Assembly (NCBI GenBank): GCA_947458455.1
Contig: CANGYJ010000003.1
Location: 248,001 to 312,000, forward strand
Length of the DNA: 64,000 nt
Direction: 5' to 3'
From: Verrucomicrobiaceae bacterium
GTDB taxonomy: Bacteria; Verrucomicrobiota; Verrucomicrobiia; Verrucomicrobiales; Verrucomicrobiaceae
Within the stretch, counting starts at the first letter, position 1. Every line of letters begins with the position of its first letter. The notes below the pieces were generated by a model. That model ran no database searches. It saw only the letters and a program-made list of their open reading frames with translations, and was not told the origin of the DNA. This document shows positions 22,266-44,540 of this stretch, in pieces. The position numbers were made by a program, and so were the translations under genes.

Positions 22266-22285
22266 GTCACATGATTGCCACATGG
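22266..22285 (-). promoter_or_regulatory. Shared upstream motif, copy 3
   Basis: On the minus strand: CCATGTGGCAATCATGTGAC, the best-formed copy, with CATGTG repeated at an 11-base interval. It lies 44 bases upstream of the ATG at 22222. TGTGAC is followed after nine bases by GTTGAG. It sits in the divergent intergenic region shared with the PEP-CTERM gene at 22365. Confidence 0.5.
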
Positions 22286-22320
22286 CGAAATCGTTGCGTC
22301 GAAAGTTTCGACGTCGCCAT
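22282..22320 (+). promoter_or_regulatory. Palindromic element before the choice-of-anchor I gene
   Basis: A perfect inner palindrome CGTCGAAA-G-TTTCGACG (22297-22313) is flanked by outer arms ATGGCGA (22282-22288) and TCGCCAT (22314-22320), with an eight-base bulge on the left. It lies 45 bases before the ATG at 22365, so it could be an operator or a 5' UTR hairpin. Confidence 0.4.
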
Positions 22321-22364
22321 GGAGAAGGCTAAAAGCGCGGTGCCTTGCCACACCCTATCCTCCC

Positions 22365-24181: not shown

Positions 24182-24417
24182 GTGCTTCGATGGCTCGATG
24201 AAGATGTGATCCATGTCTTCATTAGTCTTTCCTAAATGATACAGTGCTGTTTTTTGGTGATCTTTGTGACGTCGTTGAATCAATCATTACGTTCATTAAA
24301 AACACCGGGAAACGCAGTCGTCACGGAAGAGTAAATTCAGACGAAAAGGTCACACGCAATCACGAGCGCAAACTCGAATCGCCTCCATGAATCGCGCGCT
24401 TCAAGCCACCAATGCTC

Positions 24418-27400: not shown

Positions 27401-30400
27401 CTCAGGGCAAGGGCACCATCGCTGACGATGAGCCGATCATCAGCACGCCTTACACGCACTTGAATCGTGATGTGCTCACGCCGAACACGAACACTTGGCC
27501 TTCCGGCGGCATCACCATTGGCACCACTCAGTTTGTTAACCTGGGCCTCCAGGGTGTGGGCCGCGTGCCTGCCAATGCGATTGATGCCGCCACCGGCGAA
27601 TCGCTCGGCTCCATCTCCGACATGCAGGTCACGGACTTCGTGAAGACCCCCACGGGCTTCTCCGGCAAGTTCCACTTCCTGCCTGACCGTGGCTACAACA
27701 GCGGCGTGATCTTCTCGAACTACGCAGCGCGTATCAACGCCTTCGACTTTACCTTCACGCCTTACACCTCCTCCTCGCCGACAGCGGCGCAGAACCAGGT
27801 GGCGATGACCTTCACCGGCTCCACACGCTTCACATATGATAGCGGTGCAGGCCAGAAATACACCACCGGCACGCTGGCCGACAGCACCTTGAGCCTCCTC
27901 GGCACGACTCTTCCCTCCACTGCCGCCGCCTCCACGCAGAGCGATGGCACCGTGGCGAACCGCCTCACCATGGATGCAGAGGGCCTCGTCCTCGACAAGC
28001 GCCCCGGCAAGGCCGGTAGCGGCTGGGTGGGTGACGAATACGGTGCCTTTGTGTATCACTTCAATGCCAGCAAGCAGATTGACGGCCAGCTCCGTCTCCC
28101 TGATGCGCTCATCCCGCACTCCCCCGTCGGCACCACGAACTTCCTCGCTGATCCGCCGGTCAATGGCCGCCGTATCAACCAGGGCATGGAAGGCCTGACC
28201 CAAAGCCCAGACGGCACTCGCCTCTTTGCTCTGCTTCAAAGCGCCACCATCCAGGACAGTGGCAGTGGCAATCAGGGCCGCTCCAACACACGCCTGCTCG
28301 TGTATGACGTCTCCTCCAGCGATGCACCGAGCGATCCTATCGCTCAGTATGTGATCCAGCTCCCTCGCATTGACGACACTGGCTCCACCACCAACGGCAC
28401 CACGGTGAACCGCAATGGTGCTCAGAGCAGCATCCATGCGATCAGCAACACGCGGTTCCTCGTCCTTGCCCGTGAAGGAAATGGTCGCGGTGCAGCCGGC
28501 AAGCCGGTCTTCAAGTCCGTCATGCTCGCAGACATCAGCGTCGCGACCAACATTGATGGTCTCTATGATGCGGAAGGCGCTGCCGTCGCTCCTGCCGGTG
28601 TGCTTGCACCCGGTGTCACGCCAGTGGCCTGGACGGAATCGCTGAACATGCTCGGCGGTCTCGGTGCCACAGCTACGGAAGTCGCGAAATTTGGCCTCAA
28701 CCTCAACGCCGCTCCTGGTGACATCAACTCCATCTGCGAGAAGTGGGAAGCCATCGGCCTCGTGTCCGCGAATGACTCGGCCAACCCGAACGACTACTTC
28801 CTCTTCCTTGGCAACGACAACGACTTCATCACCCAGACCGGCCAATACATGGATGCCGCTGGTAACATCCAGTCCTACAACGCGGGTCTTGAAAACGACA
28901 CCATCGTGCTCGCCTATCGAGTCCGTATGACGGGTCCAGACAATCAGGCGCCCTTTGCCACCAACGCGATTCCGGCCCAGTCGGCCACGAAGGATTCTGC
29001 CTTCTCCTACACCTTGCCTGCAGACGCTTTCACGGATCCCGAGGGACAATCGCTCACTCTCACTGCCACCCGTGCTGACGACAGCGCTCTGCCAGCCTGG
29101 CTCACCTTTAACGCCTCGACACGCAGCTTCAGCGGTTCCCCTACCGCTGTGGACATCGGCAATGTCGTGGTCAAAGTCACGGCAACTGATGGCGGCAGCC
29201 CAGCTCTTTCCTACAGCGTGAACTTCACCATCCAGGTGGCTCCGCTTTCAGTCTCGCCTTACTTCCCACAGTCCGTTGCTTCGGGCGACCCGCGCTCCAG
29301 CAGCGTGGTTCTCTGGACCCGGTTGATGGATGGCGACACGGCGGTGAACCGCACGGTCACTCTGCACGTCAGCACGACGGGCACGCTCGCGAATGTGGGC
29401 ACGACGGCTGCTCTCGGCGGCACCAACATTTGGACCGGCGGCGCATTGACCGCGCAAGCCGCGCACGACGGCGTGGTGAAAGTCAAGGTGGGCAGCCTCA
29501 CCGCGGACACGACTTACTACTACCAGTTCACCTACAACGGCCAGCGCTCGCCAATTGGCCGCACCAAGACCGCCCCAGCCGCAGGATCGGCGCGGACGGT
29601 GAAATACGCCGCCATCAACTGCAATGACTTTGTGGGCCGCTACTTCAACGTCCTGCGCCAGCTTGCTGAGCGTGAGCAGAACACGATAGACTTCGTGCTC
29701 AACCTTGGCGACTACGTCTATGAAACCACGGGCGACCCGAGCTTCCAGACCTCGCTTCCAGAGCGCGCCATGGTCTTCTCCAACCCGGCGGAAGCCATCA
29801 ACCTCGGCAGTGGCAACTACGCCGCGCAATCGGTCGGCAACTACCGCGACGTTTACAAGACCATCCGTCAGGACGCCCAGCTCCAGCGCGTGCATGAACT
29901 CTTCCCGATGATCAGTATCTGGGATGACCATGAATTCAGCGATGATAACTGGAAGGACAACGCCACCTATTTCGACGGCAAGGTCAACGAACAGCAGACG
30001 AACCGGAAGAGGAACGGTGAGCAGGCCTGGATGGAATTCCTCCCAACGGAGCGTGGCATGGCCGGCTCTGGCAACGGCCTCGAGATCGACAGCACGGATC
30101 TCTATCCGAACACCGTGATTTATGATGCCTTCAACTTCGGCACCAATCTCGACCTCATCCTCACCGACATCCGCACCAACCGCGCTGACCATTTGATTCC
30201 TGAAGATGCCTGCCCGTCCGGCATTCCGATGACGGAAGCCAATGTCATTGCCACTCTCGCTGCGGCCAATGGTCTGAATGTCCCCACCTTTACCGCAGCC
30301 GTTTGGCCCGGTATTCGCGGCAGCTTCGCTCCGTATGTCAATATCGATGATCCAGCCTACGCGGCGGTGAAGACTGGCTTCAAGGCCATCATTGCAGCTT

Positions 30401-33400
30401 CCGTCAACAGCGCCATGGCCGCACTCCCAGCGGGGCAGACGCCGATCACCACGGGCGCAGCTTATGCCGACGCCAATGTCGTCGGTTTCCGGGATGCTGG
30501 TTTCATCAATCAAGCGTTCGTCGCGGCAGGACAGAGTGCACCGTTTGACGCAGCAGCGCTCGCCGCCATGCCACGCGGGCTGTCGTATTACCTCCTGGGT
30601 AAGACCAGCGTCTTCAGCGACTTCGGCAGCCGCTACCAGGTGGTGAATCAGACCTTCCAGCTCTTTGCAGGCTACACTTACCAGGCGTTCGTCCTATCTG
30701 GCGGCACGCTCGGTCGTGATCAGGCTTTCTATAATACCGCACAGCAGACCTTCCTGGCCACCGCGCTCGCAAACAGCACTGCGGCTGGCAACAAGTGGCG
30801 CGTGGTGGCAAGCTCCACCCCTTATACTCCAATCAAGCTCGAACTCGGAGACCTGCCCGCCGGTATCACTTTGCCAACCCAAGGCACCATCGGCGCTCTC
30901 ACGATTCCAGCCAGCCTGCCTGCACAGTTCCTCGTCGAGTTCCTCCTCAATGCGGATGAACCTGCTGGCTTCCCGCAGTTCCGCCAGGGAATGATCGACC
31001 TCTTTGCCCAGCATGACGCCATCATCGTCTCCGGCGACATTCACGCTGAACTCATCGGCAGGAACAACGCCACCAACGGCCAGAAGGTGGTTGATTTCAC
31101 CGTGCCGTCTGCGGCGTCTTCAGAGTTCCGCAGAGCCGTGAGCGGCGCCTTCACTACGGTGGAAGGTCTGATGACTCCGGCTGTGCAGGCTGCCACAGGT
31201 CTTTCCGGCAACTTCGCTTTCGACACCACACAGAAGCAGGCGGTGATCAATGCAACGGACGCCATCATCAAGCACAACACGTCTGAGATGTTCCAGGCCG
31301 ACACAGCAGCTCATGGCTATACGGTCTTCACCGCAGGGGCTTCCGCCTTCAACGCCGAATATCAAAAGATCAATGTCAGCGAGATCGACAATAACCACTA
31401 CGCCCTGAGCAGTGGGGCACTTGATGCTCTTTTCCAGAAGGAGAACTTTACCGTCACCAAGACCGGTAGCGGGCCGAGTACCGACCTCAGTTTAGGAGTT
31501 CCGCAAAACAACACCACCATCGTCATCGGTGATGCCACGATTAGCGAAGGCAACAGCGGCAGCAGCACGCTGAACTTCACCGTCACCCGCAGTGATCTCT
31601 TGGGAGCCTTCACGGTTGATTTCGCCACCTCCAGCGGCACCGCGACCTCTGGCAGTGACTTCACTGCCGGTTCCGGCACGGTCACTTTCACCGCTGGTGG
31701 TTCCACCACACAAAATGTGAGTGTCGCCATCACTGGCGACACCATCGTCGAGCCGAATGAAACCTTCCTCGTGACGCTTTCAAATGTCGTGAACACCGCA
31801 GGCACCGCCGCCATCACGGATGCGACCGCCACGGGTAGCATCACCAATGATGATCCAGCGGCCTTCGCTACTTGGCTTGCCGAAAATGGATTCACTGGCA
31901 CTGCCAGCGGTGACACCGATAGTGATGGAGTGCCAGACTCACTGGAATACTTCTTCAATTCCAGCCCGAACAGCGGTGGCGATCGCGACAATCTGCCAAC
32001 AGTGGTGATGAACGGCAACGATCTCGAATTCCGCTTCACTTACCTCAACAGCACGGTCTTCCCGGGCTTTCTCCAATGCTCTGAAGATCTCATCAACTGG
32101 GCCAATGCCACCCCTGGTGTGGATTATGAAATCATCACCGAAACTATGAACGGCGTGGAGACCGCCGTGCGCTACCGCATCTTCTGCAATCCGCTGCCGA
32201 CCACGCAGGGCCCGTTCACCTACCTCACGCCATTCACCGCCGCCGTCGGACGCGGTGCCATCGACCAGCTCACCATCACCAATCATGGCATGGTAGGCGC
32301 AGGCCGCCTCACCGGCGAGCAGCTCGACAGCTTTGGCGAAACGATGGGTGCCGCCTCCGGCCTCGCCATCAGCGGCTGGAGCTACAACAGCGGCAGCGGC
32401 CAGTTCAGCGGCACCTTCAACGTGCTGCCAGATCGCGGCTACAACAGCGGCACCACCTTTTCCAACTACGCCGCCCGCGTGCATCAGGTGCCATTCACCT
32501 TCACGCCTTATTACGGCGCAGGTCCGGTCGCCCAGACGCAGATCGTGCCAACGTATGGCAGCACCACGAAGTTCACCTACCTCGACGGACTCACCACGAA
32601 GTTCACCACCGGTCTGAATCCAACCGGCGTCAGCACCATCTTCGGTCAGAGCGTCGGCACCGTCACGGCTGCCAACGGCCCTGCGGGTGCTCAGGAAAGC
32701 CTCATCAGCTTTGATGCCGAGGCCATCCACCTCTTTGCCGACGGCTCCGGCTTCGTCTCCGATGAATACGGCACCTACATCTGCCGCTTCAACAGCGCCA
32801 AGCAGTTCACCCGCATCATCCAACTGCCCAGCGCCGCACAACCACGCCGCCCGGCAGGCGCTCTGAACTTCGACTCCGTCAGCGCACCGACCAATGGCCG
32901 CCGCAACAACCAGGGCCTCGAAGGCATGACGGTCTCACCCGACAACACCCGCCTCTTTGCCCTCATGCAGAGCGCCCTCGTGCAGGACACTGGCAGCGGT
33001 GCCGTAGGCCGCTGGAACACCCGCCTCTTCGTCTATGACATCGCCGGTGCGAAGCTCGAAAACCCCGAGCTCATTGCCGAGCACGCGGTGCAGCTCCCAC
33101 GCTACGATGTGAATGGCAATGGTTCCGCTCTCGACGCCACCTCCGCGCAGTCTGAGATCGTGGCCCTGAGCAACACGCAGATCCTGATGCTGCCACGCGA
33201 TGGCAACGGCCTCGGCAAAGGCGACACCAATCCGCCGGTGATGAAGACCGTCGATCTCGTGGACTTCTCAGCCGCCAGCAACATCCTCAACCTCTACGAC
33301 GCGGAAGGAAACCAGATCAGCCCCGCTGGAACGCTGCGCACAACCATCACCCCGGCCCGCAGCACCGTCGTGGTCAACCTGCTCTCCAGCACCGATCTCG

Positions 33401-33708
33401 CCAAATTTGGATTCAACACCAACACCGCCGCACCAAACGCCTTCACCGTGAATGAGAAGGCCGAAGGCATGGCCCTTGTGCCAGACACCTCCACCGCCAG
33501 CACCGAGGACTACTTCCTTTTCGTCGCCAACGACAACGACTTCCAGTCCAGCGACGTGCGCATGGTCGATGCCGCCGGCGACCTCGTCAGCCACGGCGAC
33601 GCCCGCGACCGCGGCATCACCAACGACGCCGTCTTCACCGCCTGGCGCATCACCATTTGCCCGAACAACCGCAAGTTCTTCCGCATCCAGGTGAACACAG
33701 CGCCTTGA
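24418..33708 (+). CDS. Giant exported protein (~3,096 aa): two phytase-esterase-like domains flanking a PhoD-like phosphatase
   Basis: The signal peptide is MKSRFKLSSTFAAVV...LQAAA (ATG 24418; an ATG two codons earlier is possible). Approximate layout: N-terminal propeller-like region to 365; CARDB/DUF11-like 370-490; Ig-like (PAPNYQWYRG) 500-590; cadherin-like sandwich 590-690; a segment with HFTDNEWNG 690-895; Calx-beta 900-1000; phytase-esterase-like domain 1010-1505 (FHFLPDRGYNSG, GDEYGAF); dystroglycan-type cadherin domain 1510-1610; PhoD-like domain 1612-2330 with NLGDYVYE, WDDHEFSDDNW and VSGDIHAELIG; second Calx-beta 2370-2470; a TSP3/C-terminal-type domain near 2490; second phytase-esterase-like domain 2600-3080 (FNVLPDRGYNSG, SDEYGTYICRF). 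PhoD enzymes are Ca/Fe phosphodiesterases/phosphomonoesterases; the phytase-esterase-like family is named for similarity to alkaline phytase. Together this suggests release of phosphate from organic phosphorus outside the cell. No PEP-CTERM tail is present. Confidence 0.85.
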   Translation: MKSRFKLSSTFAAVVSAACMIQSGSPLQAAAFTPGNVVIYRVGSGTGSLINTGNPVFLDEYSSTGTLVQSIPLPTTVSGANKRLVASGTATSEGMLTRSADGQYLLLTGYDATPPVVSLAGTASVAVNRVIGRVNAAGTVDTSTALTDFASANNPRSAVSSDGSKFWMSGGNGGVRLAALGATTSTDVSTTVTNLRQLGIAGGQLYVTTSSGTAVRLGTVGTGLPETTGQTITSLTGIPTSGGSPYSFFFADLNAGVAGVDTLYVADDASLALTKYSLVASTWTSNGTVGVDADDYRGLTGVVNAGVVTLYATRKGGSAAAGGGELVTISDSSGHNAAFTGTPALLATAAANTAFRGVAFSPVAVAANPDLTASITAPATANTGANFDYSITVNNVGTANATGVAVNFVLPAGLTFGSATGSNGFSAVNNSGTIQFTGGSINASSSATLTVTVSTNTAATYNAPIGAVTADPSSTVTEINESNNTSTAGTSTVVSMPNTPPSFSLHPANVSIANGAATTLTCLATGSPAPNYQWYRGIAPDTTNPVGTDSTSFTTPSLTVTTSYWVRATNTNGTADSNTAVVTVAPSNNANLSALTLSNGLLSPSFSSAVISYNSYQVAGTTSITVTPTMAHGNATITVNGSPVTSGSPSASITLNEGANSISIVVTAQDGSTTKIYTVNAFRSAAPLATGSIAITAYNADGSDDIAFVALAAIPANSVIHFTDNEWNGSAIGAGGAFNDFGESEFIWVAPAGGIAAGSVVTLNTISATITTNTGTAAISDGTNTGLSTTADAVYAFQGSTHVADVFLAQISTDAASSIVNTGLTLGTTAISLASGSDGAAYSGSRANQTSFAAYGPQVNSIANWNDLGNAGDGTTLLPFDTTAFVLGTASSVTINDVTVTEGNSGTTTMTFTVTRSDNTGAFSVAYATANDTAADTSDFVAASGTLTFTVGGALTDTIAVTINGDTLSEVGGEQFFVNLSGIVNTVGVASLTDAQGKGTIADDEPIISTPYTHLNRDVLTPNTNTWPSGGITIGTTQFVNLGLQGVGRVPANAIDAATGESLGSISDMQVTDFVKTPTGFSGKFHFLPDRGYNSGVIFSNYAARINAFDFTFTPYTSSSPTAAQNQVAMTFTGSTRFTYDSGAGQKYTTGTLADSTLSLLGTTLPSTAAASTQSDGTVANRLTMDAEGLVLDKRPGKAGSGWVGDEYGAFVYHFNASKQIDGQLRLPDALIPHSPVGTTNFLADPPVNGRRINQGMEGLTQSPDGTRLFALLQSATIQDSGSGNQGRSNTRLLVYDVSSSDAPSDPIAQYVIQLPRIDDTGSTTNGTTVNRNGAQSSIHAISNTRFLVLAREGNGRGAAGKPVFKSVMLADISVATNIDGLYDAEGAAVAPAGVLAPGVTPVAWTESLNMLGGLGATATEVAKFGLNLNAAPGDINSICEKWEAIGLVSANDSANPNDYFLFLGNDNDFITQTGQYMDAAGNIQSYNAGLENDTIVLAYRVRMTGPDNQAPFATNAIPAQSATKDSAFSYTLPADAFTDPEGQSLTLTATRADDSALPAWLTFNASTRSFSGSPTAVDIGNVVVKVTATDGGSPALSYSVNFTIQVAPLSVSPYFPQSVASGDPRSSSVVLWTRLMDGDTAVNRTVTLHVSTTGTLANVGTTAALGGTNIWTGGALTAQAAHDGVVKVKVGSLTADTTYYYQFTYNGQRSPIGRTKTAPAAGSARTVKYAAINCNDFVGRYFNVLRQLAEREQNTIDFVLNLGDYVYETTGDPSFQTSLPERAMVFSNPAEAINLGSGNYAAQSVGNYRDVYKTIRQDAQLQRVHELFPMISIWDDHEFSDDNWKDNATYFDGKVNEQQTNRKRNGEQAWMEFLPTERGMAGSGNGLEIDSTDLYPNTVIYDAFNFGTNLDLILTDIRTNRADHLIPEDACPSGIPMTEANVIATLAAANGLNVPTFTAAVWPGIRGSFAPYVNIDDPAYAAVKTGFKAIIAASVNSAMAALPAGQTPITTGAAYADANVVGFRDAGFINQAFVAAGQSAPFDAAALAAMPRGLSYYLLGKTSVFSDFGSRYQVVNQTFQLFAGYTYQAFVLSGGTLGRDQAFYNTAQQTFLATALANSTAAGNKWRVVASSTPYTPIKLELGDLPAGITLPTQGTIGALTIPASLPAQFLVEFLLNADEPAGFPQFRQGMIDLFAQHDAIIVSGDIHAELIGRNNATNGQKVVDFTVPSAASSEFRRAVSGAFTTVEGLMTPAVQAATGLSGNFAFDTTQKQAVINATDAIIKHNTSEMFQADTAAHGYTVFTAGASAFNAEYQKINVSEIDNNHYALSSGALDALFQKENFTVTKTGSGPSTDLSLGVPQNNTTIVIGDATISEGNSGSSTLNFTVTRSDLLGAFTVDFATSSGTATSGSDFTAGSGTVTFTAGGSTTQNVSVAITGDTIVEPNETFLVTLSNVVNTAGTAAITDATATGSITNDDPAAFATWLAENGFTGTASGDTDSDGVPDSLEYFFNSSPNSGGDRDNLPTVVMNGNDLEFRFTYLNSTVFPGFLQCSEDLINWANATPGVDYEIITETMNGVETAVRYRIFCNPLPTTQGPFTYLTPFTAAVGRGAIDQLTITNHGMVGAGRLTGEQLDSFGETMGAASGLAISGWSYNSGSGQFSGTFNVLPDRGYNSGTTFSNYAARVHQVPFTFTPYYGAGPVAQTQIVPTYGSTTKFTYLDGLTTKFTTGLNPTGVSTIFGQSVGTVTAANGPAGAQESLISFDAEAIHLFADGSGFVSDEYGTYICRFNSAKQFTRIIQLPSAAQPRRPAGALNFDSVSAPTNGRRNNQGLEGMTVSPDNTRLFALMQSALVQDTGSGAVGRWNTRLFVYDIAGAKLENPELIAEHAVQLPRYDVNGNGSALDATSAQSEIVALSNTQILMLPRDGNGLGKGDTNPPVMKTVDLVDFSAASNILNLYDAEGNQISPAGTLRTTITPARSTVVVNLLSSTDLAKFGFNTNTAAPNAFTVNEKAEGMALVPDTSTASTEDYFLFVANDNDFQSSDVRMVDAAGDLVSHGDARDRGITNDAVFTAWRITICPNNRKFFRIQVNTAP

Positions 33709-33750
33709 TCTGGCCCGCCTGCATCCAAGCTCGCATCCCATTTGCCTCTC

Positions 33751-34338
33751 ATGTCCGTCGCAAGATCAGGCAGTCCGGTCGATCACGCCTGTGATCACCT
33801 GTATCGTCGCCACCAGTCCAGTCTGGTGAGCTTCGCCTGCTTGCGTGGTTGTGATGAACATGAGGCCTGGGATCTGGTGCAGGAGTTGTTTCTGCGTGCC
33901 TTCCGGTTCGGCATGATCCAGCCTCTTTTTTCTCGCTCAGAGGAGATGCAGCGTGCGTGGCTGCTGCGTACGCTGCGCTGGATGCTGATTAATCTGCACC
34001 GCAGAAGGACAAGACTGCGTCGTGGCGGTGGTCAGGCGCTCGAATCGCTCGATTTGCTCATCGAAGACGGCGTCGAGTTCTCCTCAGCAGGCACGCCTGC
34101 GGGTGATTTTGACCGCCAGTGGGCCTGTGCGGTGCTGGATCGTTGCCTTTCACGCCTGCGCAGCAGCATCAAGCCTGCGGCATGGATGGCCTTCGAGTCT
34201 GCTTTGCAAGGTGCGAATGCTCCGATCACACCCGCCATGCGTGTCGCCGCACATCGCACTCGCGTTAGGCTGCGTCAGTTGATTCGCATTGAGGCATGCG
34301 AAGAGACGTTGCTAAAGGCTGTTAGCAGCCGAAATTGA
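33751..34338 (+). CDS. ECF-type RNA polymerase sigma factor, paralog of 61295-61897
   Basis: A 195-residue protein from ATG at 33751 (a TTG nine bases earlier is less likely). Region 2 is visible as LYRRHQSSLVSFACLRGCDE, then the core-binding segment HEAWDLVQELFLRAF and the -10 recognition helix QRAWLLRTLRWMLINLHRRR. The C-terminal part has a basic helix MRVAAHRTRVRLRQLIRIEA at the region 4 position. It begins 42 bp after the giant phosphatase gene and precedes the PhoX-nuclease gene, so it may control one or both. No anti-sigma gene is adjacent. The second sigma factor at 61295-61897 is clearly its paralog (shared DEHEA-DLVQELFLR and INLHRRRTRLRRGG-type segments). Confidence 0.85.
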   Translation: MSVARSGSPVDHACDHLYRRHQSSLVSFACLRGCDEHEAWDLVQELFLRAFRFGMIQPLFSRSEEMQRAWLLRTLRWMLINLHRRRTRLRRGGGQALESLDLLIEDGVEFSSAGTPAGDFDRQWACAVLDRCLSRLRSSIKPAAWMAFESALQGANAPITPAMRVAAHRTRVRLRQLIRIEACEETLLKAVSSRN

Positions 34339-34435: not shown

Positions 34436-34591
34436 AGGGATTCTCTGCGTCTGTTTCGTTCATCTGATGCTGTCTGTGCTGATCCGTTACACTTTTTCGC
34501 GTGAACAAAACGGCAGTGTCGAAGGCTTCACGGAGCATGTCATGCGGAGTGTGGTGTAGTGATGAATGGGGTGGTTCGACTATTCGAAGCC

Positions 34592-37500
34592 ATGAAAAAG
34601 ACCCCACTCACGCTCATTGCCTCTTTAATGACTGCGTCCGGCCTATTGGCGGACACCACACCGCATGTGCTCTCCGGCGGCTCGTTCTCTCAGAACTGGT
34701 CCAGTGCAGGGCTTATCACTGTCAATGATAGCTGGAGCGGTGTGCCGAGTATCACGGGCTACCTCGGTGATCTTTTTCCGTCAACCTCTACGACAGGCGT
34801 GGATCCACGGACCATCGTGACATCCAATGGCGTGGTTGATGTCATCGCCAATCAGACTGCCCCAAATACGAACACAGCAGGTGGCGTCGCCGAGTTTGCT
34901 ATCACAAACCCCGTCGTCGCCCTTCAAGGATCAGGCACGGCGGACGCGCCCTACCTTTCCATCTTTCTCAACACCACGGGGGTTCCTGCCGTAACGGTCT
35001 CCTACAAGCTGCGCGACATTGATGGCAGCGCTGACAATGCCGCTCAGCAGGTGGCGCTACAATACCGCATCGGCAGCACTGGAGACTTCACGGATGTGCC
35101 TGCGGGTTATGTTTCAGATGCCTCCTCGGGTCCTAATCTTGCCACGGTGGAGACAACCATGAATGTCACCCTGCCGGGTGCCGTCGTGGGGCAGGCGCTT
35201 GTCGAAGTGCGCATCATCACCACCAACGCCGGCGGCAGTGATGAATGGATCGGTATTGATGACATCGTAGTCTCGGCTAGTGACTCTATCGCACCTCTCG
35301 CGAGCACTTTTTCGCCTTTGGACAATGCCACGAGCGTGCCCGTGACCTCGACGCCGACGGTCACCTTCAATGAGAACGTCCAAAAAGGCACCGGCAGCAT
35401 CCTGATCAAGCGCGGCAGCGACAACACGACCTTTGAGAGCATCAACGTAACCTCCACGCAGGTCACGGTGGCAGGAGCGGCGGTGACGATCACGCCTTCG
35501 GCGAACTTCGCAAACTCCACCGGCTACTACATCGAGATTCCAGCAGGAGCCATTGAGGACACCTCTGGCAATGACTACGCGGGCATCAGCGGTGCCACGG
35601 CATGGAACTTCACCACCATCGCTCCTTCGGTGCTGCCAAACGTCTCCGAGACATTCGTCACTGGCTGGCGCGTCAATCCCACCGGCGCTAGCCAAGTGAC
35701 CGAATTTTATGCTGAGGGTAGCGGTCAGGGCACATTCGCTCGTTACGACTTGGGTGTGTTTAATTTCACCAAGCTTGACTTCGGTCTCAGTGGTTCCTCG
35801 CAGGTCACGGGGATCAACACGGCGGAATTCACCCTTCGTCAAAACAATCGCACCTTCAGCGTGGGCACGCAGTTTGAGTTCTTCCTCACCACGGATGCGC
35901 CCACGGGGAAGACCTTCAATCCAGCTACGGCCAATGGCATCGACGCCGCACAGTTCACCAATGCCCCGATCTCGCTCGGCCAGTTCGCTTACACACCGAC
36001 GGCGGTGGACCCTACCTTTCACACGTTCACGCTGACGCTTAGCCCCACGGCCAATGCAACGCTCGCAGCCCGCATCAATACGGGCGAGGACTTCAGCCTG
36101 ATCATCGCGGCGGTCAATGCACCTGATGCCATCACCTTCTCAGGCAAGGGCAATACCTTTGATCCTGGCGATCCTGCATTGAAGCTCACGGTGAACGAAA
36201 CGACCGGTGTAGATACCACCGCGCCGACGGTGATCTTTTTCACACCTGCGGATGGCAGCGGCGGTCTGCCGATCGCTTCGAATCTGCGCATCAATTTCAA
36301 TGAGATCGTCCAAAAAGGCACCACCGGCACGATCACGATTCTCCGCAGCAGTGACAACTCGGTCTTCGAGACCATCCCAGTCACGAGCAGCCAAATCACG
36401 GTGAATCTCGGAACAGTCACGATTGATCCCACGGCCTCAATGGAGTCCGCCGTGGGTTATTATGTGCAAATCAGCGCTGGAGCCATTGAAGACACTACCG
36501 GCAATGATTTCGTCGGCATCGCCGATACGACGACGTGGAACTTCAACACCGCGCAGCCGCCGATCACGAACCTGGGGCCGTTCGCCGCCTCGCAGAATGC
36601 TCCAGCGGGCACGGTGGTGGGTCAGCTCAACACGAACATCAATGGCAAGGAAGGCATCAAATACAGCATCCTTGGCGGCAGCGGTGCCACAGCGATGATG
36701 AAGGCCGTTCCTGGCAATGGCTACCTCGTGACGCCGATCTTCACCATCGGCGATACCATCACCGGAGCCACCGGAGCACTCAATGCGACCTCTACAGGCA
36801 ATTTCTCACCCGTGGGCACGCTCGACGGTCTCGGCGCCTTTTCGCTGAATGCGAACACGGTGCGTGTCTTCAGCAATCACGAGATCGAACTCCCCGCCAG
36901 CGGCTCCGCAGGCTATCCCTACACTCTCGCCAACGGCACGGTGATCACCAAAGGCGGCGCACGCATCAGCTACTGGGACATTGATAAATCGACGCGCCGT
37001 GTCGTCGATGGCGGTCTCGCCATCGCCCGCATGTATGACCGCACGGGCGCGGTGGTCACGAGCACGGCGCAGCTCGAACTGGGCGGCCTTGATCGCATTT
37101 GCTCGTCCTCTCTTTTCGAACCCAATCTGTGGGGCGCAGGCCGTGGCCTTGTGGATCGCACTTACTTCATGGGTGAGGAGACCTCGACCTTCTTCGGCCA
37201 TCCACACGGCGGCACGATGTGGGCACTCGATACCTCGAATGGCGATCTTTGGGCGCTGCCGGACTTTGGCCGCGGCTCCTGGGAAAATGCCGCGCTCGTC
37301 GATACGGGCACCACGACCCATGTGGCCTTCCTTTTGGGTGATGATGCGCAGTCTCGCCCGCTCATCCTTTATGTTGGCGAAAAGAGCACTGCCCCTGGAG
37401 CCAACTTCGTCGAGCGCAACGGCCTCAAAGGCGGCCAGCTTTATGTGTGGAAGACCACCGGCGGCAATACCACGCCGCAGCAGTTCAACGGCACTGGAGC

Positions 37501-40500
37501 CACACGCACGGGCACCTGGGTCGCAGTGAATGCACGGAACATCGCCAATGCGGGCACCGCTGGTCACGATGCCCAAGGCTATAAAAACGACACCACCTTT
37601 GGCACGGAGGCAAGTGGCCTCGGCGCGTTCCTTTTCTCACGTCCAGAAGATCTCAGCACCAGCCCCGCGGATGGCAGCATCGTGGCCTTCACTTCCACCG
37701 GGCGTGGCAGCGTGTATCCACTGGATAACTGGGGAGACACCTATGTGCTCGATATTGATTTCAACGGTAGCGCCTTGCCTACCGCCGGTAATATTCGCAT
37801 CGCCTACGACGGCGATGACGCCGGTGGCGGCCAGTTCATGAGTCCTGAAGAAGGTCTGCGCTGCCCTGACAACCTCGACTGGGCGGACGATGGTTTTCTT
37901 TATGTTCAGGAAGATCAGTCGAACCAAGTGGGCAGCTTCGGTGCGGCTGGTTTTGAGACTTCCATCTGGAAACTCAATCCCACCACCGGCGCAGCCACAC
38001 GCCTCACACAGACAGACCGCAGCACGGTGATGCCACTCGGCTCCACGGACACCAATCCGGGTGATGTGGGCAATTGGGAATCCTCTGGCATCATCGACGT
38101 GTCATCACTGTTCGGCGAGGCAGCGGGCACGCTCTTCCTTTTCGATATCCAGGCGCACAGCGTGACAAATGGCCTCATCTCATCGAAGCAGCTTTTTGAA
38201 GGCGGCCAGCTATGCTTCCTCGAGGCCGGCATCGGCAAAGGTGCCTTCAAAGTGAATCCCAACACCGGCATCATCTCCATCGCCAATGTGGACGCCATCG
38301 ACATGGCCTCGCAGCCTTCGCATGAGCTGCGCTTGCAGGCCTTTGACGGCACCAACCACACGCTGAACCAAGTCACGGTGAACATCACCAACACGGGCGT
38401 CACCAGCACGAACAACTTCAAAGCCGCCACTTACAACGTTAGCCACTTCCGCGCCACTGCGGGCGCTTTGATCACGGATCTCGCGGGTGTCAACACGACG
38501 CAAAGCGCTAACATCGCCCGAGTCATCCAGCGCAACAACGCCGACGTGATCCTCATCAATGAATTCGACTACGACGCGAAGGGCGAGGCCTTGAAGCGCT
38601 TCCAGGAGAACTACCTCGAAGTCGGTCAAAGCGGCGAGGCGCCCGTTTATTACCCTTATGCCTTCATCGCGCCCTCAAACACCGGCATCGCCTCCGGCTT
38701 CGACCTCGACAACAACGGCAGCGTCGTCACCACCCCTGGTGCGACTGGCTACGGCGAGGACGCCCTCGGCTTCGGCACCTTCCCCGGCCAGTATTCCTTT
38801 GTGGTGCTCTCAAAGCATCCTATCGACACCGCGAACATCCGCACCTTCCAGAAATTCCTTTGGAAAGACATGCCGGGCGCCGTGCTGCCGGACAATCCAA
38901 ACATCGCCGGCACGGGAGACTGGTATTCGCCCGCTGAGCTGAACGTGTATCGCCTCTCCTCGAAAAATCACGCCGATGTGCCCGTGCTCATCAATGGCAC
39001 GCCGGTCCACATCCTCGCCAGCCATCCCACGCCGCCTGTGTTTGATGCGCCTGGAGCAGGTCTGCCCTGGATCGCTGGTGTCGATCACAATGGCCGCCGC
39101 AACAGCGATGAAATCCGCTTCTGGTCCGATTACATCAACCCCGCCGCCTCCACCTACATCTACGACGATACCGAGACATCTATCGCTCCAGGCGGTGGCC
39201 TCGCTCCAAACTCGCGCTTTATCATCTGCGGCGATCAAAACGCGGATAACAACGAAGGTGACAGCACCGATCCGGCCATCAAGCAGCTCATCGGCGGCAT
39301 TGCCACGGTTGGCGGTGCAGTCATTCCAGCGAACCCGCTGGTGAACAGCACCTTTGTCCCCGCTGGTGGCGCAGGCCCGCAGCCGGATGATACCGCAGAC
39401 TTCAGCGGCGGTGTGCGTGTGGACTACGCGCTTCCATCCATCTTCGGTTTCGATACGCCCACTGGCGGCGTCTTCTGGCCCGGCGCTGGCGATCCGATGA
39501 GCGGTGCCGTGGCCGCCTCTGATCACCACCTCGTCTTCGTGAATCTCACGCTCAACGGCGTCACGCTGCCGCCGAGCACGAATTTGACCAACTACTATGC
39601 CCCCGCGTCCGGGTTGACTGGCTCCGCGCTGCAAACTGCCCTCCACAACATCATCGACGACCATGTCATCATTGATTACAACACCGTGGACGACGTCATT
39701 CGCATCATTGATGAAGCCGCTAACGACAGCAGCGCCGTGCGCCTTCTTTACTCCAACGCCAACCTGCCCAAGACCTCATCGAGCTGGAACCGCGAGCACG
39801 TCTGGCCCCGTAGCGACGGCGTCGGCGATGAAGGTGCTGACTACAGCGACATCCATCACCTCTTCCCCTGCAAAGACACCGTCAACAGCCTGCGCTCGAA
39901 TTTCCCCTTTGATGAGAGCACGAATAATTTCAGTGATTCATTTGCGCCGGAGTCATTCAGAGACGGCGATTCTTGGGAGCCGCTGGATCGCGACAAAGGC
40001 GTCGTCGCCCGTGCGCTTCTCTACATGATGACCCGCTACGACGGCAGCGATGTGCTCAGCAGTGATCTCATCCTCGCCAACAACACCTCAGCCACTGGCA
40101 CGCATGGCGTCCTCAGCACCCTGCTCGCCTGGCACGCGGCGCATCCGCCGACCGACTATGAGCGCAATCGCAACAACGCCATCTACTCCGGCGTGAATGT
40201 CAGCGGCATCATTCGCGCTCAGGGCAATCGCAATCCCTTCATCGACTTCCCGCAGTTCGCGGATGCCATTTTCCTCAGCACCGCCGTGCAGTCCTTCAAC
40301 AAATGGCAGGTGCAGCGCTTCAACTTCGCCCAGCTCCAAAACACCGCCCTCACTGGACCAAACGGCGATGCGGATGGTGACGGCCGCAGCAACTACGCCG
40401 AATTCCTCCTCGGCGGCAATCCCGCCGCTGGTAACGATGAGCCCCTCGCTGCCGCCCGCACCGGAAACAACCTCACCCTTACCTTCCGCCGCCCCAAAGG

Positions 40501-40669
40501 CATCACCGAGCAGGTCCGCATCGAAGTCTCCAGCGATCTCAGCATCTGGACCACCGTCCCCGGTTGGGAAACCGCCTCCGTCATCACCGACGAAGGCGAC
40601 TACCAGCGCCTCGACTACACGTTCACGATCACCCTCGACGGCAAATTCTACCGTGTGGTGTTTCAATAA
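34592..40669 (+). CDS. Giant exported protein (~2,025 aa): PhoX-like phosphatase + EEP nuclease/phosphatase + endonuclease I
   Basis: Signal peptide MKKTPLTLIASLMTASGLLA. Layout by residue: N-terminal beta domain to 225; Big_5/SwmB Ig-like 231-348; a beta domain 349-538; second Big_5 538-652; PhoX/DUF839-like domain about 683-1263 with NHEIELPASG, GEETSTFFGHPHGGTMWALD and WADDGFLYVQEDQSN; endonuclease/exonuclease/phosphatase (EEP) domain 1273-1656 with ATYNVSHF, LINEFDYDAKGEAL, GDQNADNN and SDHHLVFVNL; endonuclease I domain 1663-1886 with the catalytic WNREHVWPRSDG, DIHHLFPCKDTVNSLRSN and ALLYMMTRYDG; a C-terminal TSP3-like calcium loop (DADGDGRSNYAEFLLG) plus beta domain ending FYRVVFQ. PhoX is a Ca/Fe phosphomonoesterase and endonuclease I cuts DNA, so one chain could degrade extracellular DNA and dephosphorylate the products. 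The ATG at 34559 would add 11 residues before the signal and is rejected. Confidence 0.88.
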   Translation: MKKTPLTLIASLMTASGLLADTTPHVLSGGSFSQNWSSAGLITVNDSWSGVPSITGYLGDLFPSTSTTGVDPRTIVTSNGVVDVIANQTAPNTNTAGGVAEFAITNPVVALQGSGTADAPYLSIFLNTTGVPAVTVSYKLRDIDGSADNAAQQVALQYRIGSTGDFTDVPAGYVSDASSGPNLATVETTMNVTLPGAVVGQALVEVRIITTNAGGSDEWIGIDDIVVSASDSIAPLASTFSPLDNATSVPVTSTPTVTFNENVQKGTGSILIKRGSDNTTFESINVTSTQVTVAGAAVTITPSANFANSTGYYIEIPAGAIEDTSGNDYAGISGATAWNFTTIAPSVLPNVSETFVTGWRVNPTGASQVTEFYAEGSGQGTFARYDLGVFNFTKLDFGLSGSSQVTGINTAEFTLRQNNRTFSVGTQFEFFLTTDAPTGKTFNPATANGIDAAQFTNAPISLGQFAYTPTAVDPTFHTFTLTLSPTANATLAARINTGEDFSLIIAAVNAPDAITFSGKGNTFDPGDPALKLTVNETTGVDTTAPTVIFFTPADGSGGLPIASNLRINFNEIVQKGTTGTITILRSSDNSVFETIPVTSSQITVNLGTVTIDPTASMESAVGYYVQISAGAIEDTTGNDFVGIADTTTWNFNTAQPPITNLGPFAASQNAPAGTVVGQLNTNINGKEGIKYSILGGSGATAMMKAVPGNGYLVTPIFTIGDTITGATGALNATSTGNFSPVGTLDGLGAFSLNANTVRVFSNHEIELPASGSAGYPYTLANGTVITKGGARISYWDIDKSTRRVVDGGLAIARMYDRTGAVVTSTAQLELGGLDRICSSSLFEPNLWGAGRGLVDRTYFMGEETSTFFGHPHGGTMWALDTSNGDLWALPDFGRGSWENAALVDTGTTTHVAFLLGDDAQSRPLILYVGEKSTAPGANFVERNGLKGGQLYVWKTTGGNTTPQQFNGTGATRTGTWVAVNARNIANAGTAGHDAQGYKNDTTFGTEASGLGAFLFSRPEDLSTSPADGSIVAFTSTGRGSVYPLDNWGDTYVLDIDFNGSALPTAGNIRIAYDGDDAGGGQFMSPEEGLRCPDNLDWADDGFLYVQEDQSNQVGSFGAAGFETSIWKLNPTTGAATRLTQTDRSTVMPLGSTDTNPGDVGNWESSGIIDVSSLFGEAAGTLFLFDIQAHSVTNGLISSKQLFEGGQLCFLEAGIGKGAFKVNPNTGIISIANVDAIDMASQPSHELRLQAFDGTNHTLNQVTVNITNTGVTSTNNFKAATYNVSHFRATAGALITDLAGVNTTQSANIARVIQRNNADVILINEFDYDAKGEALKRFQENYLEVGQSGEAPVYYPYAFIAPSNTGIASGFDLDNNGSVVTTPGATGYGEDALGFGTFPGQYSFVVLSKHPIDTANIRTFQKFLWKDMPGAVLPDNPNIAGTGDWYSPAELNVYRLSSKNHADVPVLINGTPVHILASHPTPPVFDAPGAGLPWIAGVDHNGRRNSDEIRFWSDYINPAASTYIYDDTETSIAPGGGLAPNSRFIICGDQNADNNEGDSTDPAIKQLIGGIATVGGAVIPANPLVNSTFVPAGGAGPQPDDTADFSGGVRVDYALPSIFGFDTPTGGVFWPGAGDPMSGAVAASDHHLVFVNLTLNGVTLPPSTNLTNYYAPASGLTGSALQTALHNIIDDHVIIDYNTVDDVIRIIDEAANDSSAVRLLYSNANLPKTSSSWNREHVWPRSDGVGDEGADYSDIHHLFPCKDTVNSLRSNFPFDESTNNFSDSFAPESFRDGDSWEPLDRDKGVVARALLYMMTRYDGSDVLSSDLILANNTSATGTHGVLSTLLAWHAAHPPTDYERNRNNAIYSGVNVSGIIRAQGNRNPFIDFPQFADAIFLSTAVQSFNKWQVQRFNFAQLQNTALTGPNGDADGDGRSNYAEFLLGGNPAAGNDEPLAAARTGNNLTLTFRRPKGITEQVRIEVSSDLSIWTTVPGWETASVITDEGDYQRLDYTFTITLDGKFYRVVFQ

Positions 40670-40904: not shown

Positions 40905-43900
40905 GTGCCGCGCCTTCATCTCCTCATTGCTCTGTGTTTGTTTCCCCTGGCTTTGCAGGCCCAGTCTTTGGTGACACTGCCGGAGGCGCATCGCATCGCC
41001 ACGGAGCATGGCGAGCGGGTGTATGAAGTCGCCACGGATGAACTGGCGGTGGAGGATGCCAGCGGTCAGCAGCAGGTGCAGAAGCAAGCGGTGGTGGCTA
41101 CTGCGCAGGCGGCGCGAGTGAGGGCAGTAACTTTGAAGGGCGATTTGGTCCTGTATGAGCAAGGCAGGCCGCGTGACGATGGTTCCCGCCGCATCGTGCG
41201 AAAGCAGCTCGCGGTGCTGCTGCGGCCTGGGACGGATGTGCAGGCGGTGGCTGCGGCTATGGGATTGAGAGCCGTGGGAACGCATCCGAGTGTGAAGGGC
41301 TATGTCATGTTTGAAGCGGCGGACTCGGGCGCGGCGCTGCTGGCGGTGACGGAATTGCGTGCGCGTGCGGAGGTGCTCTCCGCCGATCCCCAGCTCGCAA
41401 AGCAACAGCGCAAACGCTTTGTCCCGAACGACACCTTGTTTTCCCAGCAGTGGCACCTGCGCAACACGACGGCGGTGGATCGCGATGTCAATGTTACCAC
41501 CGTGTGGGACAGCTACAAAGGCAGCGGCATCCGCATTGGCATCGTCGATGACGGACTGCAAACGACGCATCCCGATCTCAGCGTGAACACCGATCTCGTG
41601 AATGATCGTGATTGGAACGATGCGACCCCCGATGATCCGAATCCTGTGCTCAGCGCGGACTTTCACGGCACGTCTTGCGCGGGTGTGGCGGCGGCGCGGG
41701 GTAATAACAACCTCGGCGTGAGCGGTGCTGCGCCTGAGGCCACGCTCGTGGGCTTGAGATTGATCGGAGCCGCCACCACGGATGCGCAGGAGGCGGAGGC
41801 GCTGGGTTATAAAAACGACATCATCCAGATCAAAAGCAATTCTTGGGGCCCAGCCGATGATGGCATCACGCTCGAAGGCCCCGGCCCCCTTACGCTGGCC
41901 GCGCTGCAATCCGCCACCACCAGCGGTCGTGGCGGAAAAGGCAGCATCATCCTTTGGGCAGGCGGAAATGGCGGCGACGTGGGTGACAACTCGAACTACG
42001 ACGGCTACGCGAACAGCATCTACACCATCGCCGTGGCCGCACTGGGCAATGACGGACTACGCTCTTACTACAGCGAGCCGGGGGCGAACCTCGTCGTGAC
42101 GGCCCCCTCCAGCGGTGGCCCGCTGGGCATTGTCACCACCGACCTCGTCGGCAGCAGTGGTTACAACACGGGCAGCGTTGCAGGCGAACTCTCCGATACA
42201 AACTACACGAACGACTTCGGCGGCACCTCGTCCGCCACGCCGCTCGCCGCAGGCTGTGTCGCCCTTGTGCTGCAGGCCAATCCCAACCTTGGTTGGCGCG
42301 ATGTTCAGGAGATCCTCATTCGCAGCGCCACGAAGGTGGATCCCGCCAATGCGGACTGGGTGAACAACGCTGCTGGTTTCCATTTCAACCACAACTATGG
42401 CGCGGGTCTCATCAATACCCAGGCTGCAGTCACGATGGCCTCCAGCTGGACGAATCTGCCCGCCGCCACGAATACCACCAGCGCCCAGAGTGCGCTCAGC
42501 GTGGCTATCCCGGATAACAATGCCACCGGCATCACGCGCAGCTTTGACCTCAGTACGAGCAATCTCCGCGTGGAGCAGGCCACCGTCACCGTGAGCATCA
42601 GCCATGCCTCGCGCGGACACCTCGTCGTCACGCTCACATCACCGGCAGGCACGGTGAGCCGCCTTACCGAGAAGCACTCCGACACCGGCAATGACTACAG
42701 TGCATGGACCTTGAGCACCGTGCGCTGCTGGGGTGAAAACTCGCAGGGAACCTGGACGCTGCGTGTGAGTGATGTCACTAGCGGCACCGCCGGCACGCTC
42801 ACCGCCGCATCATTGACTGTGCATGGCACCGTCGCCGGACCGGTCAATCAGCCGCCGGTGATCAGCGCCGCCACGCTGTCACAAAACGGCACGGTCTTTA
42901 CCGATCAAAGCCTCACTCTCGGCACCATCAGCACCAGCGATCCGGAAGGCGATGCCATCACCCTGGCCTATCAATGGCAGCGCAGCACCGATAACCTCAC
43001 CTTCACCGACATCGCCTCAGCCACGGGTGCAAGCCTGGCCCTCAGCGATGTGCACAGCGGCGGCGTCATTCGCTGCCGCATCACGCCGAGCGCGAACACG
43101 CAAACCGGCGCCGCGTTTATCACCGATGCCGTCACTGTGAACCGCAGGCCCGCTCGCATCGCCCAAGTCGGCACGAGCTACAGCTATGACTCCGATCTCT
43201 TTCTCGTCAGCAATGCCACCAGCTTCAGCCGCGACCTCATCATCAACGAATTCAGCCAGGGGGCTCAATCCGGGGCCAATCGCGAGTGGTGTGAGCTGCT
43301 CGTTTTGAAAACCACGGACCTGCGCGGCTTCACCCTCGCGGATCGTTCAGGCACCTACACCACCTTTGCCAATGTCGCCCTCTGGAGCGCCGTGGCACCC
43401 GGCACCACCATCGTCATCTTCAAAGCCACCGAACGCGATGCCATACTGCCCGCGACAGACGATCTCGATCCTGCGGATCGCGTGCTCGTCATCGGCCACA
43501 GCAACACCAGCGCCTTCACCGGCGGCACCTGGGGTGGCCTCAGCAACTCCGGCGCGGAAGCACTCATCATTCGCAACACCAGCGCCCAGATCGTGGACGC
43601 CGTGTCCTTCAACAACGACAACGTCTATGATGCCAAGCTCGCCTCGGTCGGCAGCACGAAGGCCGCCTTTTACAGCGGCGACACCGAAACAGGAGTGGAT
43701 TCCCCGGCGCAATGGACCATCGGCAATGCCAGCGCCGCCACACCCGGCGCAGGCAATGGTGGCATCAATACCACCTTCGTCTCCAATCTGCGCAGCGGCG
43801 TCTTCAGCCTACAGCCGCAGTTCCGCCTTGCCGCCACGAGTGCCAGCGTGCCCGGCTTGTCGCTGGATGCAGCCACTGGCCTGCTCGCTGGCATCCCTGT

Positions 43901-44540
43901 GACCGCAGGCGTTTATCCCATCGTCATCGAGCGCTTCGTCGGCAGCGTCGTGGTTGGCCAGAGCTACACGCTGCTCGTCACCACCGACACCGCCGCAGGC
44001 ACCATCCCTGCCGGGCAAACATGGACCCCTGACAGCAGCACTACCTTCGCTGGCGATCTCCAGGTGTTCGGCAATCTCGACACCAATGGGCAAACCGTGA
44101 CCGTGAACGGCACCCTAAATATTTCAGGCACGATCACGAACAATACGGGCATCATCGCCTATCTGCACCGCAGTGGCCCGCTGCCGCCGGGGCAGATACG
44201 ACTCATTGCCAATCCGGCCAACGACATCTCCGATCCCGATGGCGACGGCACTCCCAACCTTCTAGAGTATCTGCTCGGAACCGATCCCTCCGCCAGCGAA
44301 CCCAACCCAGTGCAAGTTATCGCTCCAGGCCATCAGTTGCACCTCCAGTTTCGTTTTCCCCACGGCATCGCCGGTGTCACACCCACCGTCGAGGTCACCG
44401 ATGATCTCGCCCAATGGCAATCCGGCACCGGTCACACGGAGCAGGTGAGTGACACTTTAAGCAGCGGCTTCCGCGCCCTCGTCATCCGCGATGCCGTGCC
44501 CGGCCCGCAGCGCTTCATTCGCCTCCGCGTGACGCGCTAG
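40905..44540 (+). CDS. Exported subtilisin-like serine protease (S8) with P-domain and lamin-tail domain
   Basis: 1,211 residues with a GTG start, supported by GGAGG eight bases upstream. The signal peptide is PRLHLLIALCLFPLALQAQ. The S8 domain spans about 198-482: catalytic Asp in IGIVDDGLQTTHPDL, His in FHGTSCAGVAAARG, oxyanion Asn in WAGGNGGD and Ser in FGGTSSATPLAAGC. A kexin-type P/homo-B domain (about 528-642, ending LTVHGTVAG) follows, then an Ig-like region, a lamin-tail domain (DLIINEFSQG...REWCELLVL, about 772-938), and a C-terminal TSP3-like loop DPDGDGTPNLLEYLLGTDP with a beta domain ending FIRLRVTR. The residues before 198 look like a pro-region. Probably a cell-surface or secreted endoprotease. 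Kexin-like layouts usually cut after basic residues, but specificity is not determined. Confidence 0.9.
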   Translation: MPRLHLLIALCLFPLALQAQSLVTLPEAHRIATEHGERVYEVATDELAVEDASGQQQVQKQAVVATAQAARVRAVTLKGDLVLYEQGRPRDDGSRRIVRKQLAVLLRPGTDVQAVAAAMGLRAVGTHPSVKGYVMFEAADSGAALLAVTELRARAEVLSADPQLAKQQRKRFVPNDTLFSQQWHLRNTTAVDRDVNVTTVWDSYKGSGIRIGIVDDGLQTTHPDLSVNTDLVNDRDWNDATPDDPNPVLSADFHGTSCAGVAAARGNNNLGVSGAAPEATLVGLRLIGAATTDAQEAEALGYKNDIIQIKSNSWGPADDGITLEGPGPLTLAALQSATTSGRGGKGSIILWAGGNGGDVGDNSNYDGYANSIYTIAVAALGNDGLRSYYSEPGANLVVTAPSSGGPLGIVTTDLVGSSGYNTGSVAGELSDTNYTNDFGGTSSATPLAAGCVALVLQANPNLGWRDVQEILIRSATKVDPANADWVNNAAGFHFNHNYGAGLINTQAAVTMASSWTNLPAATNTTSAQSALSVAIPDNNATGITRSFDLSTSNLRVEQATVTVSISHASRGHLVVTLTSPAGTVSRLTEKHSDTGNDYSAWTLSTVRCWGENSQGTWTLRVSDVTSGTAGTLTAASLTVHGTVAGPVNQPPVISAATLSQNGTVFTDQSLTLGTISTSDPEGDAITLAYQWQRSTDNLTFTDIASATGASLALSDVHSGGVIRCRITPSANTQTGAAFITDAVTVNRRPARIAQVGTSYSYDSDLFLVSNATSFSRDLIINEFSQGAQSGANREWCELLVLKTTDLRGFTLADRSGTYTTFANVALWSAVAPGTTIVIFKATERDAILPATDDLDPADRVLVIGHSNTSAFTGGTWGGLSNSGAEALIIRNTSAQIVDAVSFNNDNVYDAKLASVGSTKAAFYSGDTETGVDSPAQWTIGNASAATPGAGNGGINTTFVSNLRSGVFSLQPQFRLAATSASVPGLSLDAATGLLAGIPVTAGVYPIVIERFVGSVVVGQSYTLLVTTDTAAGTIPAGQTWTPDSSTTFAGDLQVFGNLDTNGQTVTVNGTLNISGTITNNTGIIAYLHRSGPLPPGQIRLIANPANDISDPDGDGTPNLLEYLLGTDPSASEPNPVQVIAPGHQLHLQFRFPHGIAGVTPTVEVTDDLAQWQSGTGHTEQVSDTLSSGFRALVIRDAVPGPQRFIRLRVTR

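Follow-up and report, generated by a model that had tools for sequence, protein, structure and literature searches.

A predicted exported chain joining PhoX-like, EEP and endonuclease I modules in Verrucomicrobiaceae

In a 64,000-nucleotide (nt) stretch of a Verrucomicrobiaceae bacterium genome (assembly GCA_947458455.1, contig CANGYJ010000003.1, positions 248,001 to 312,000; hereafter the window, numbered from its first letter), a single open reading frame (ORF) joins a PhoX-like phosphatase module, an Exo_endo_phos (EEP) module and an endonuclease I module. By sequence and structure comparison, the chain is continuous, its active sites are intact and its PhoX-like module has the PhoX fold; the arrangement is conserved in relatives, has a counterpart in a second chain, and in relatives is preceded by a palindrome that also stands before pstS. 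We read it as a probable exported phosphorus-scavenging chain that would act mainly on extracellular nucleic acid, taking DNA to phosphate in sequential steps.

One continuous chain with three enzyme modules

The initial annotation of the window had described one exported frame of about 2,025 residues holding three catalytic modules, and had proposed a Pfam check of each. The frame, 34592 to 40669 on the plus strand, encodes 2025 amino acids (aa) from ATG with zero internal stops, and its stop codon ends at 40669; between the two candidate start codons, GTG 34559 and ATG 34592, the ATG is the better choice. The calculated mass is 213 kDa and the calculated pI 4.4. All three enzyme families were detected on the chain above their Pfam cut-offs (PhoX, Exo_endo_phos and Endonuclease_1), together with two Big_5 stretches, for the best of which alone Pfam gave borders. 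We label the three-module chain and its orthologues P1, the window's own chain P0001, and the loci and genomes of relatives by L and G numbers. The parts of the chain are as follows.

34592..40669, +, whole chain P0001 (stop-free translation)
34592..34651, +, N-terminal leader MKKTPLTLIASLMTASGLLA, Sec-type, judged by eye
34652..35281, +, N-terminal region without a Pfam family (Pfam scan)
35282..35617, +, first Big_5 Ig-like domain, residues 231-342 (Pfam PF13205)
36221..36556, +, second Big_5 domain, residues about 544-655 (Pfam; borders by eye)
36659..38224, +, PhoX-like module, residues 690-1211 (Pfam PF05787, structure model, PDB matches)
38237..38386, +, short cadherin-like linker, residues 1216-1265 (PF00028, 17.8 bits, under the 28.8 cut-off)
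38399..39556, +, EEP module, residues 1270-1655 (Pfam PF03372)
39587..40291, +, endonuclease I module, residues 1666-1900 (Pfam PF04231)
40292..40666, +, C-terminal region (low-scoring genus matches to about residues 1890-2022)

Orthologues differ in where the N-terminal region begins. Matches to the C-terminal region appear elsewhere in the genus, frequently on large ORFs; it is a possible sorting or anchoring domain. As for the earlier placement of an exported chain at the cell surface, the leader is present and, judged by eye, points to export. When the entire catalytic core (1200 aa) was modelled from 14 close sequences, the predicted local distance difference test score (pLDDT) was 32, and we therefore make no statement on the relative placement of the modules.

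The PhoX-like module

PhoX is the weakest and most divergent of the three modules by Pfam score (residues 891-1117, 48.8 bits against a cut-off of 24), and because this partial match is confined to profile positions 233-457 of 515, under half of the length, we made an independent test. A profile from 11 relatives matched the Pseudomonas fluorescens PhoX in the Protein Data Bank (PDB) at E 4.4e-11, while profiles from 9 more diverse PhoX rows and from 43 PhoX rows matched PDB PhoX at E about 3e-14 and about 8e-12. An AlphaFold model of residues 690-1211 (43 sequences) reached pLDDT 89.7 and a predicted template modelling score (pTM) of 0.92; its top solved match in Foldseek was PhoX 4a9v (E 1.6e-19, the next fold at 5.8e-6), and its structural alignment to PhoX gave Z 25.2 over 414 residues (root-mean-square deviation 3.7). 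Z values of about 23, over some 270 residues, are reached with other propellers as well, so that what singles out PhoX is how far its match extends, together with the Foldseek gap. At the level of a model, the PhoX fold of residues 690-1211 is confirmed.

The residues we mark in the module are C837, E862, E863, E898, D918, R1017, E1019, D1093 and H1189, the choice of active-site Cys, Glu, Asp and Arg following the P. fluorescens structure. Their columns are invariant across 43 sequences, R1017 nearly so. In the alignment of the 11-relative profile to 3zwu, E898 pairs with E273, D918 with D292, R1017 with R385, E1019 with E387 and D1093 with D479; the last pairing falls in a weak second stretch with that profile and in the main alignment with the 9- and 43-row profiles. 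C837, invariant in the 43 sequences, is not within the part that aligns with the PDB chain. The aligned residues presumably bind metal as in the P. fluorescens structure. Like P. fluorescens PhoX (3zwu, 4a9v) in fold and in these residues, the module differs from it in sequence, with 18% identity over the structural alignment, and in export, PhoX being Tat-exported. The absence of a Tat leader and the matter of 5′-nucleotide use by the module, both taken up below, are why we name it PhoX-like.

The motifs quoted in the initial annotation as recognisable active-site signatures are all present, but GEE (E862, E863) is the sole part of its PhoX motif that is invariant in the 43 sequences, and HPHGG varies (it is gapped in L046). 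By alignment, the better marks of the module are C837, E898, D918, R1017, E1019 and D1093.

A profile search ruled out this chain as the sole PhoX carrier of its genome, turning up a second, divergent homologue, a stand-alone PhoX-like ORF of 576 aa without a Pfam family (C8, L238:4917-6644).

The EEP and endonuclease I modules

The Exo_endo_phos match covers residues 1279-1645 (69.4 bits against a cut-off of 24.5), and E1324, H1478, D1548, N1550, D1611, D1644 and H1645, to which we presume the usual catalytic role names apply, are invariant in 16 of 16 sequences from several phyla. The Endonuclease_1 match covers residues 1676-1887 (105.5 bits against a cut-off of 25), with E1735, H1736 and N1765 invariant in 10 of 10 sequences, and its profile matches solved endonucleases I, best 1oup (E 4.7e-16). 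We looked for loss of active-site residues on alignment and found the columns of both modules intact, alongside the invariant or nearly invariant ones of PhoX. NCBIfam includes a model for NucH; when ExeM/NucH-type matches were sought there at E up to 1, the one row returned for the chain was a weak deoxyribonuclease I row, and the chain scored 14.4 bits on the deoxyribonuclease I equivalog PRK15137 against a curated cut-off of 372.

Relatives and origin of the fusion

Twelve further non-identical relatives have the three modules on one frame, because of which the trio on one chain exceeds chance, and a distant chain, L069, has the same order; two of the 12, L008 and L042, are truncated where their contig ends. 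Among named loci, the nearest bear the labels Prosthecobacter, Verrucomicrobiaceae, Akkermansiaceae or Verrucomicrobia metagenome-assembled genomes (MAGs). After identical EEP sequences were merged, the 12 relatives and the window formed one clade of 13 in the EEP tree (support 100/100), and 15 rows fell in one P1 clade in the endonuclease I tree (support 100/100). Since the relatives and the window form one clade, the fusion in this group is of single origin, and it is patchily present. In L043 two frames each carry part of the EEP, and endonuclease I is present a second time at 6392-7273, reflecting either an assembly error or a decaying duplicate.

A probable second assembly of the same enzymes was found at two loci. 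L069 (from a MAG labelled Clostridia) encodes PhoX-PKD-EEP-LTD-endonuclease I, the module order of P1, whereas in L097 (from a MAG labelled Sulfuricurvum) PhoX-PKD-EEP-LTD is followed about 90 nt downstream by a separate endonuclease I ORF. Both thus resemble P1 in bringing the three enzymes together, in one chain or with an adjacent ORF, and differ from it in their LTD and PKD spacers, in a PhoX 19% identical to that of the window, and in an endonuclease I outside the P1 clade (L069 tested). A tree grouping the L069 endonuclease I with those of P1 was rejected by the approximately unbiased test (p-AU 2.2e-4), a value to be read knowing that the group was picked with the architecture known and that L069 is a long branch. 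Because of this rejection, at least two separate entries of endonuclease I into such chains seem likely. The EEPs of L069 and L097 are sisters (support 100/99) and share one larger clade with those of P1 (support 98/93), and a shared PhoX-EEP stage is for that reason possible. Three planctomycete contigs (L094, L096, L104) carry EEP and endonuclease I on separate ORFs, with about 2 to 7 kb between them.

A palindrome shared with pstS

The palindrome GTGAM-N6-GTCAC occurs before P1 orthologues with 8 matches in 3,505 nt, spread over 7 of 12 loci of which several are close relatives; elsewhere in P1 loci there are 3 matches in 209,064 nt. Before pstS there are 12 matches in 9,000 nt (10 of 18 loci, the 5 weakest of 23 rows, L111 and L256-L259, being excluded), against 1 in 58,002 nt in the rest of those loci. 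The palindrome was first spotted before the orthologues and then tried on pstS with a broader pattern, the final count using the narrower one; the motif was shaped on part of the counted data and related loci are not independent, so Fisher values are nominal. Because the palindrome is common to P1 orthologues and pstS, the gene is probably tied to phosphate control in these relatives, and the palindrome offers a direct, testable handle on such control in Verrucomicrobiota.

Across three genomes, exact palindromes numbered 8, 12 and 13, compared with 5, 6 and 6 for a reversed control, so that many genomic sites may be due to chance. Of these 33 exact sites, 15 were seen as loci and the proteins of 9 were scanned, with 3 possibly linked to phosphate and 6 without such a link. 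Of the 3, one lies in G011 between pstS and an oppositely placed phosphate-selective porin gene; one, in G010, precedes an OmpR-type response regulator gene by 50 nt; and an exact copy in the window's own genome (C2, L268:1501-1516) lies 62 nt before a PhoU-like (DUF47) ORF. A further G010 site (L266:1501-1516) precedes a ShlB/FhaC-type outer-membrane secretion gene by 64 nt. Scanning the window for an E. coli-type Pho box gave nothing convincing.

Predicted function and its alternatives

In the sequential reading, the endonuclease I module would cut DNA to oligonucleotides, the EEP module would take these to nucleotides, and the PhoX-like module would release phosphate from the resulting monoesters; three steps found elsewhere on separate proteins would here share one polypeptide. 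What we infer here comprises the activities and their order, the action of the EEP module on DNA, phosphate limitation as the inducing cue, and any passing of substrate from one module to the next. The initial annotation had likewise proposed a single machine turning extracellular DNA into phosphate, with which three modules with intact active-site residues and a leader on one chain agree. Phosphate scavenging gains indirect support from the palindrome shared with pstS in relatives, the neighbouring PhoD and phytase-like gene, a Vibrio cholerae precedent and other giant chains, but the window's own promoter lacks the palindrome.

In that precedent, Dns is an endonuclease I and Xds an EEP enzyme. 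V. cholerae takes phosphate from DNA through two nucleases that low phosphate induces, Xds and Dns, and through the phosphatases UshA, CpdB and PhoX, the last counted among the nucleotidases (PMC4723616). Xds degrades DNA to nucleotides (PMC6746945). The likeness to the window lies in two nucleases plus PhoX; the difference is that V. cholerae uses separate proteins, with secreted nucleases and periplasmic phosphatases, whereas the window has one chain on which a Pfam scan found no 5′-nucleotidase family. In Synechocystis, a phoA-nucH operon is activated under phosphorus (P) limitation (PMC1906773), again an extracellular nuclease co-regulated with a phosphatase, though as an operon rather than one chain and with no endonuclease reported in that account. 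Each part is thus known, and so is the pathway as separate proteins; for the single chain, its reassembly elsewhere and the extent of the class described below, searches of open-licence PMC papers listed no description, which is not proof of absence.

Several observations weigh against the sequential reading. The chain is patchily distributed: most of it is present in 5 of 34 other same-genus genomes, with a fragment in one more, and it occurs in 1 of 21 genomes from the rest of the order. Elsewhere in the phylum, 14 regions containing 16 of the 26 other endonuclease I matches were examined, and none of these 16 endonuclease I ORFs carries an EEP or a PhoX of the window's kind, the PhoX profile being blind to the L069/L097 kind. 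The outcome was the same when this search was repeated without the HMMER composition filter, which elsewhere had hidden PhoX in L237 and L234 that is visible without it. Four of the giants in those regions (L146, L148, L149 and L150; 1597-3105 aa) have endonuclease I as their sole enzyme family in Pfam, surrounded by Calx-beta, MBG, LTD or other repeats, so giant size does not imply several enzymes. That endonuclease I giants of the phylum generally hold the trio is ruled out by these 14 regions and 16 ORFs.

The same side of the balance holds the regulatory, structural and export data. GTGAM-N6-GTCAC has no match in the 64,000-nt window, the chain's own gene included, and is also missing before the own genome's pstS, which makes 7 of 13 P1 loci with the window counted; L037, a 95% identical relative, has it. 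No solved structure came up for the EEP profile at E 0.001, which makes DNA a putative substrate of this module. No twin arginine occurs in the window leader, nor when it is read from GTG 34559, and among 14 related leaders RR occurs in two: L003, where it precedes a likely later start, and L034, where it is not part of a full motif. This matters in that PhoX proteins leave the cell folded through Tat and are believed to receive their iron before they cross the membrane (PMC4223295). Nucleotide chemistry presents the larger difficulty. Nucleases such as these are expected to leave 5′-nucleotides; in V. cholerae, PhoX favours 3′-nucleotides and UshA takes the 5′ ones (PMC4723616). Use of 5′-nucleotides by the PhoX module is the main gap in the model and the absent Tat leader the second, and because of these two we hold the sequential model at about two in three.

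EEP enzymes are diverse, and the best-surviving alternative, which we nonetheless consider unlikely, is a general organic-phosphorus scavenger in which the EEP would act on a phosphodiester other than DNA, in phospholipid head groups or inositol phosphates, with the modules working in parallel on different substrates. The missing solved nuclease match of the EEP profile fits it, as do the PhoD and phytase-like neighbour and the related giants that pair EEP with phytase-like, beta-propeller phytase (BPP), PhoD, 5′-nucleotidase C or purple-acid-phosphatase-type domains, but endonuclease I, a nuclease family, sits on the same chain as this EEP in P1 and L069 and within about 7 kb of it in L097, L094, L096 and L104. 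Somewhat less probable is cleavage of the chain by the adjacent subtilase into separate enzymes, leaving no single machine outside, which would be compatible with sequential action; an S8 subtilase gene follows in the window, in L006/L039 and in L007/L045, yet several other orthologues, some near a contig end, showed no subtilase homologue beside them. Removal of extracellular DNA for other ends (matrix clearing, nitrogen or nucleoside supply), with PhoX minor or degenerate, is very improbable: extracellular nucleases do serve in biofilm turnover (PMC4723616), and the PhoX module, which has no Tat route, scores as the most divergent of the three in Pfam, but its active-site columns are invariant or nearly so and the palindrome is common with pstS.

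If the modules act in sequence, as we prefer, DNA-to-phosphate conversion would be packed into one exported molecule, raising the question whether fused steps keep the freed phosphate near its producer.

Gene neighbourhood

The chain is flanked by the following features.

24412..33708, +, upstream ORF of 3098 aa with PhoD and two phytase-like stretches (Pfam)
33742..34338, +, short ORF between the two giants with weak extracytoplasmic function (ECF) sigma factor matches
34516..34531, +, poor palindrome match with 2 mismatches, at chance level (44 in the window vs 33 expected)
40905..44540, +, downstream subtilase (S8) with a P domain

The 3098-aa neighbour, which also has Calx-beta, Ig and cadherin-like repeats, is a second multi-phosphoesterase giant, and its homologues adjoin P1 in L004/L033, L037 and L041; those of the subtilase adjoin P1 in L006/L039 and L007/L045 (each paired name being one locus held twice). 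In L037, the ORF at the ECF-like position is 47% identical, compared with 87-95% for the flanking giants. Upstream of the PhoD giant, 22275-24122 encodes a choice-of-anchor I protein with a PEP-CTERM-like tail, judged by eye.

A possible wider class of phosphoesterase giants

Giant ORFs chosen for carrying EEP or PhoX, rather than sampled, were scanned with Pfam and our own profiles, and no frequency is claimed for the following combinations.

L052, L063: EEP-phytase-like-BPP phytase-PhoD-RTX
L048: EEP-phytase-like-BPP phytase-RTX
L077 (cyanobacterial): EEP-phytase-like-PhoD, plus another PhoX match that the end of the contig truncates
L050: two PhoX, phytase-like, EEP, 5′-nucleotidase C, choice_anch_I
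L221, L222, L223: choice_anch_I with phytase-like, then PhoX, then 5′-nucleotidase C
L226, L230, L231: GDPD-phytase-like-PhoX
L235: PhoD-PhoX-RTX
L236: PhoX-EEP-phytase-like
L237: PhoX-EEP

We tentatively propose, at odds a shade short of even, a class of exported phosphoesterase mega-enzymes spanning Verrucomicrobiota, cyanobacteria and other phyla. It would have been built repeatedly from a common kit (PhoX, PhoD, EEP, endonuclease I, 5′-nucleotidase, GDPD, phytase-like, beta-propeller phytase and choice-of-anchor I), would work like multi-enzyme cellulases but on phosphorus compounds, and in Verrucomicrobiaceae would be controlled by a palindromic phosphate operator, GTGAC-N6-GTCAC. Two chains fit poorly: L084 has EEP and LTD alone, and L233 has no enzyme family in Pfam, though the PhoX profile finds two copies in it. 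The class as a whole would change counts of environmental phosphatase genes, because single-domain annotation sees PhoX alone or nuclease alone.

Cyanobacterial chains (choice_anch_I/phytase-like/PhoX/5′-nucleotidase C and GDPD/phytase-like/PhoX) supply the nearest PhoX relatives from outside the phylum, about 46-53% identical, and several of these sit on giant chains, as in the window. They differ in having neither EEP nor endonuclease I on those scanned, while L077 joins an EEP to the cut PhoX. In Nodularia, P limitation induces several phosphatase genes; they include PhoX-like genes, one for an atypical alkaline phosphatase and one for a glycerophosphodiesterase that carries a phytase domain (PMC9846622). 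In four cyanobacterial giants (L221, L222, L223 and L225), the phytase-like domain is apparently inserted within the choice-of-anchor I domain.

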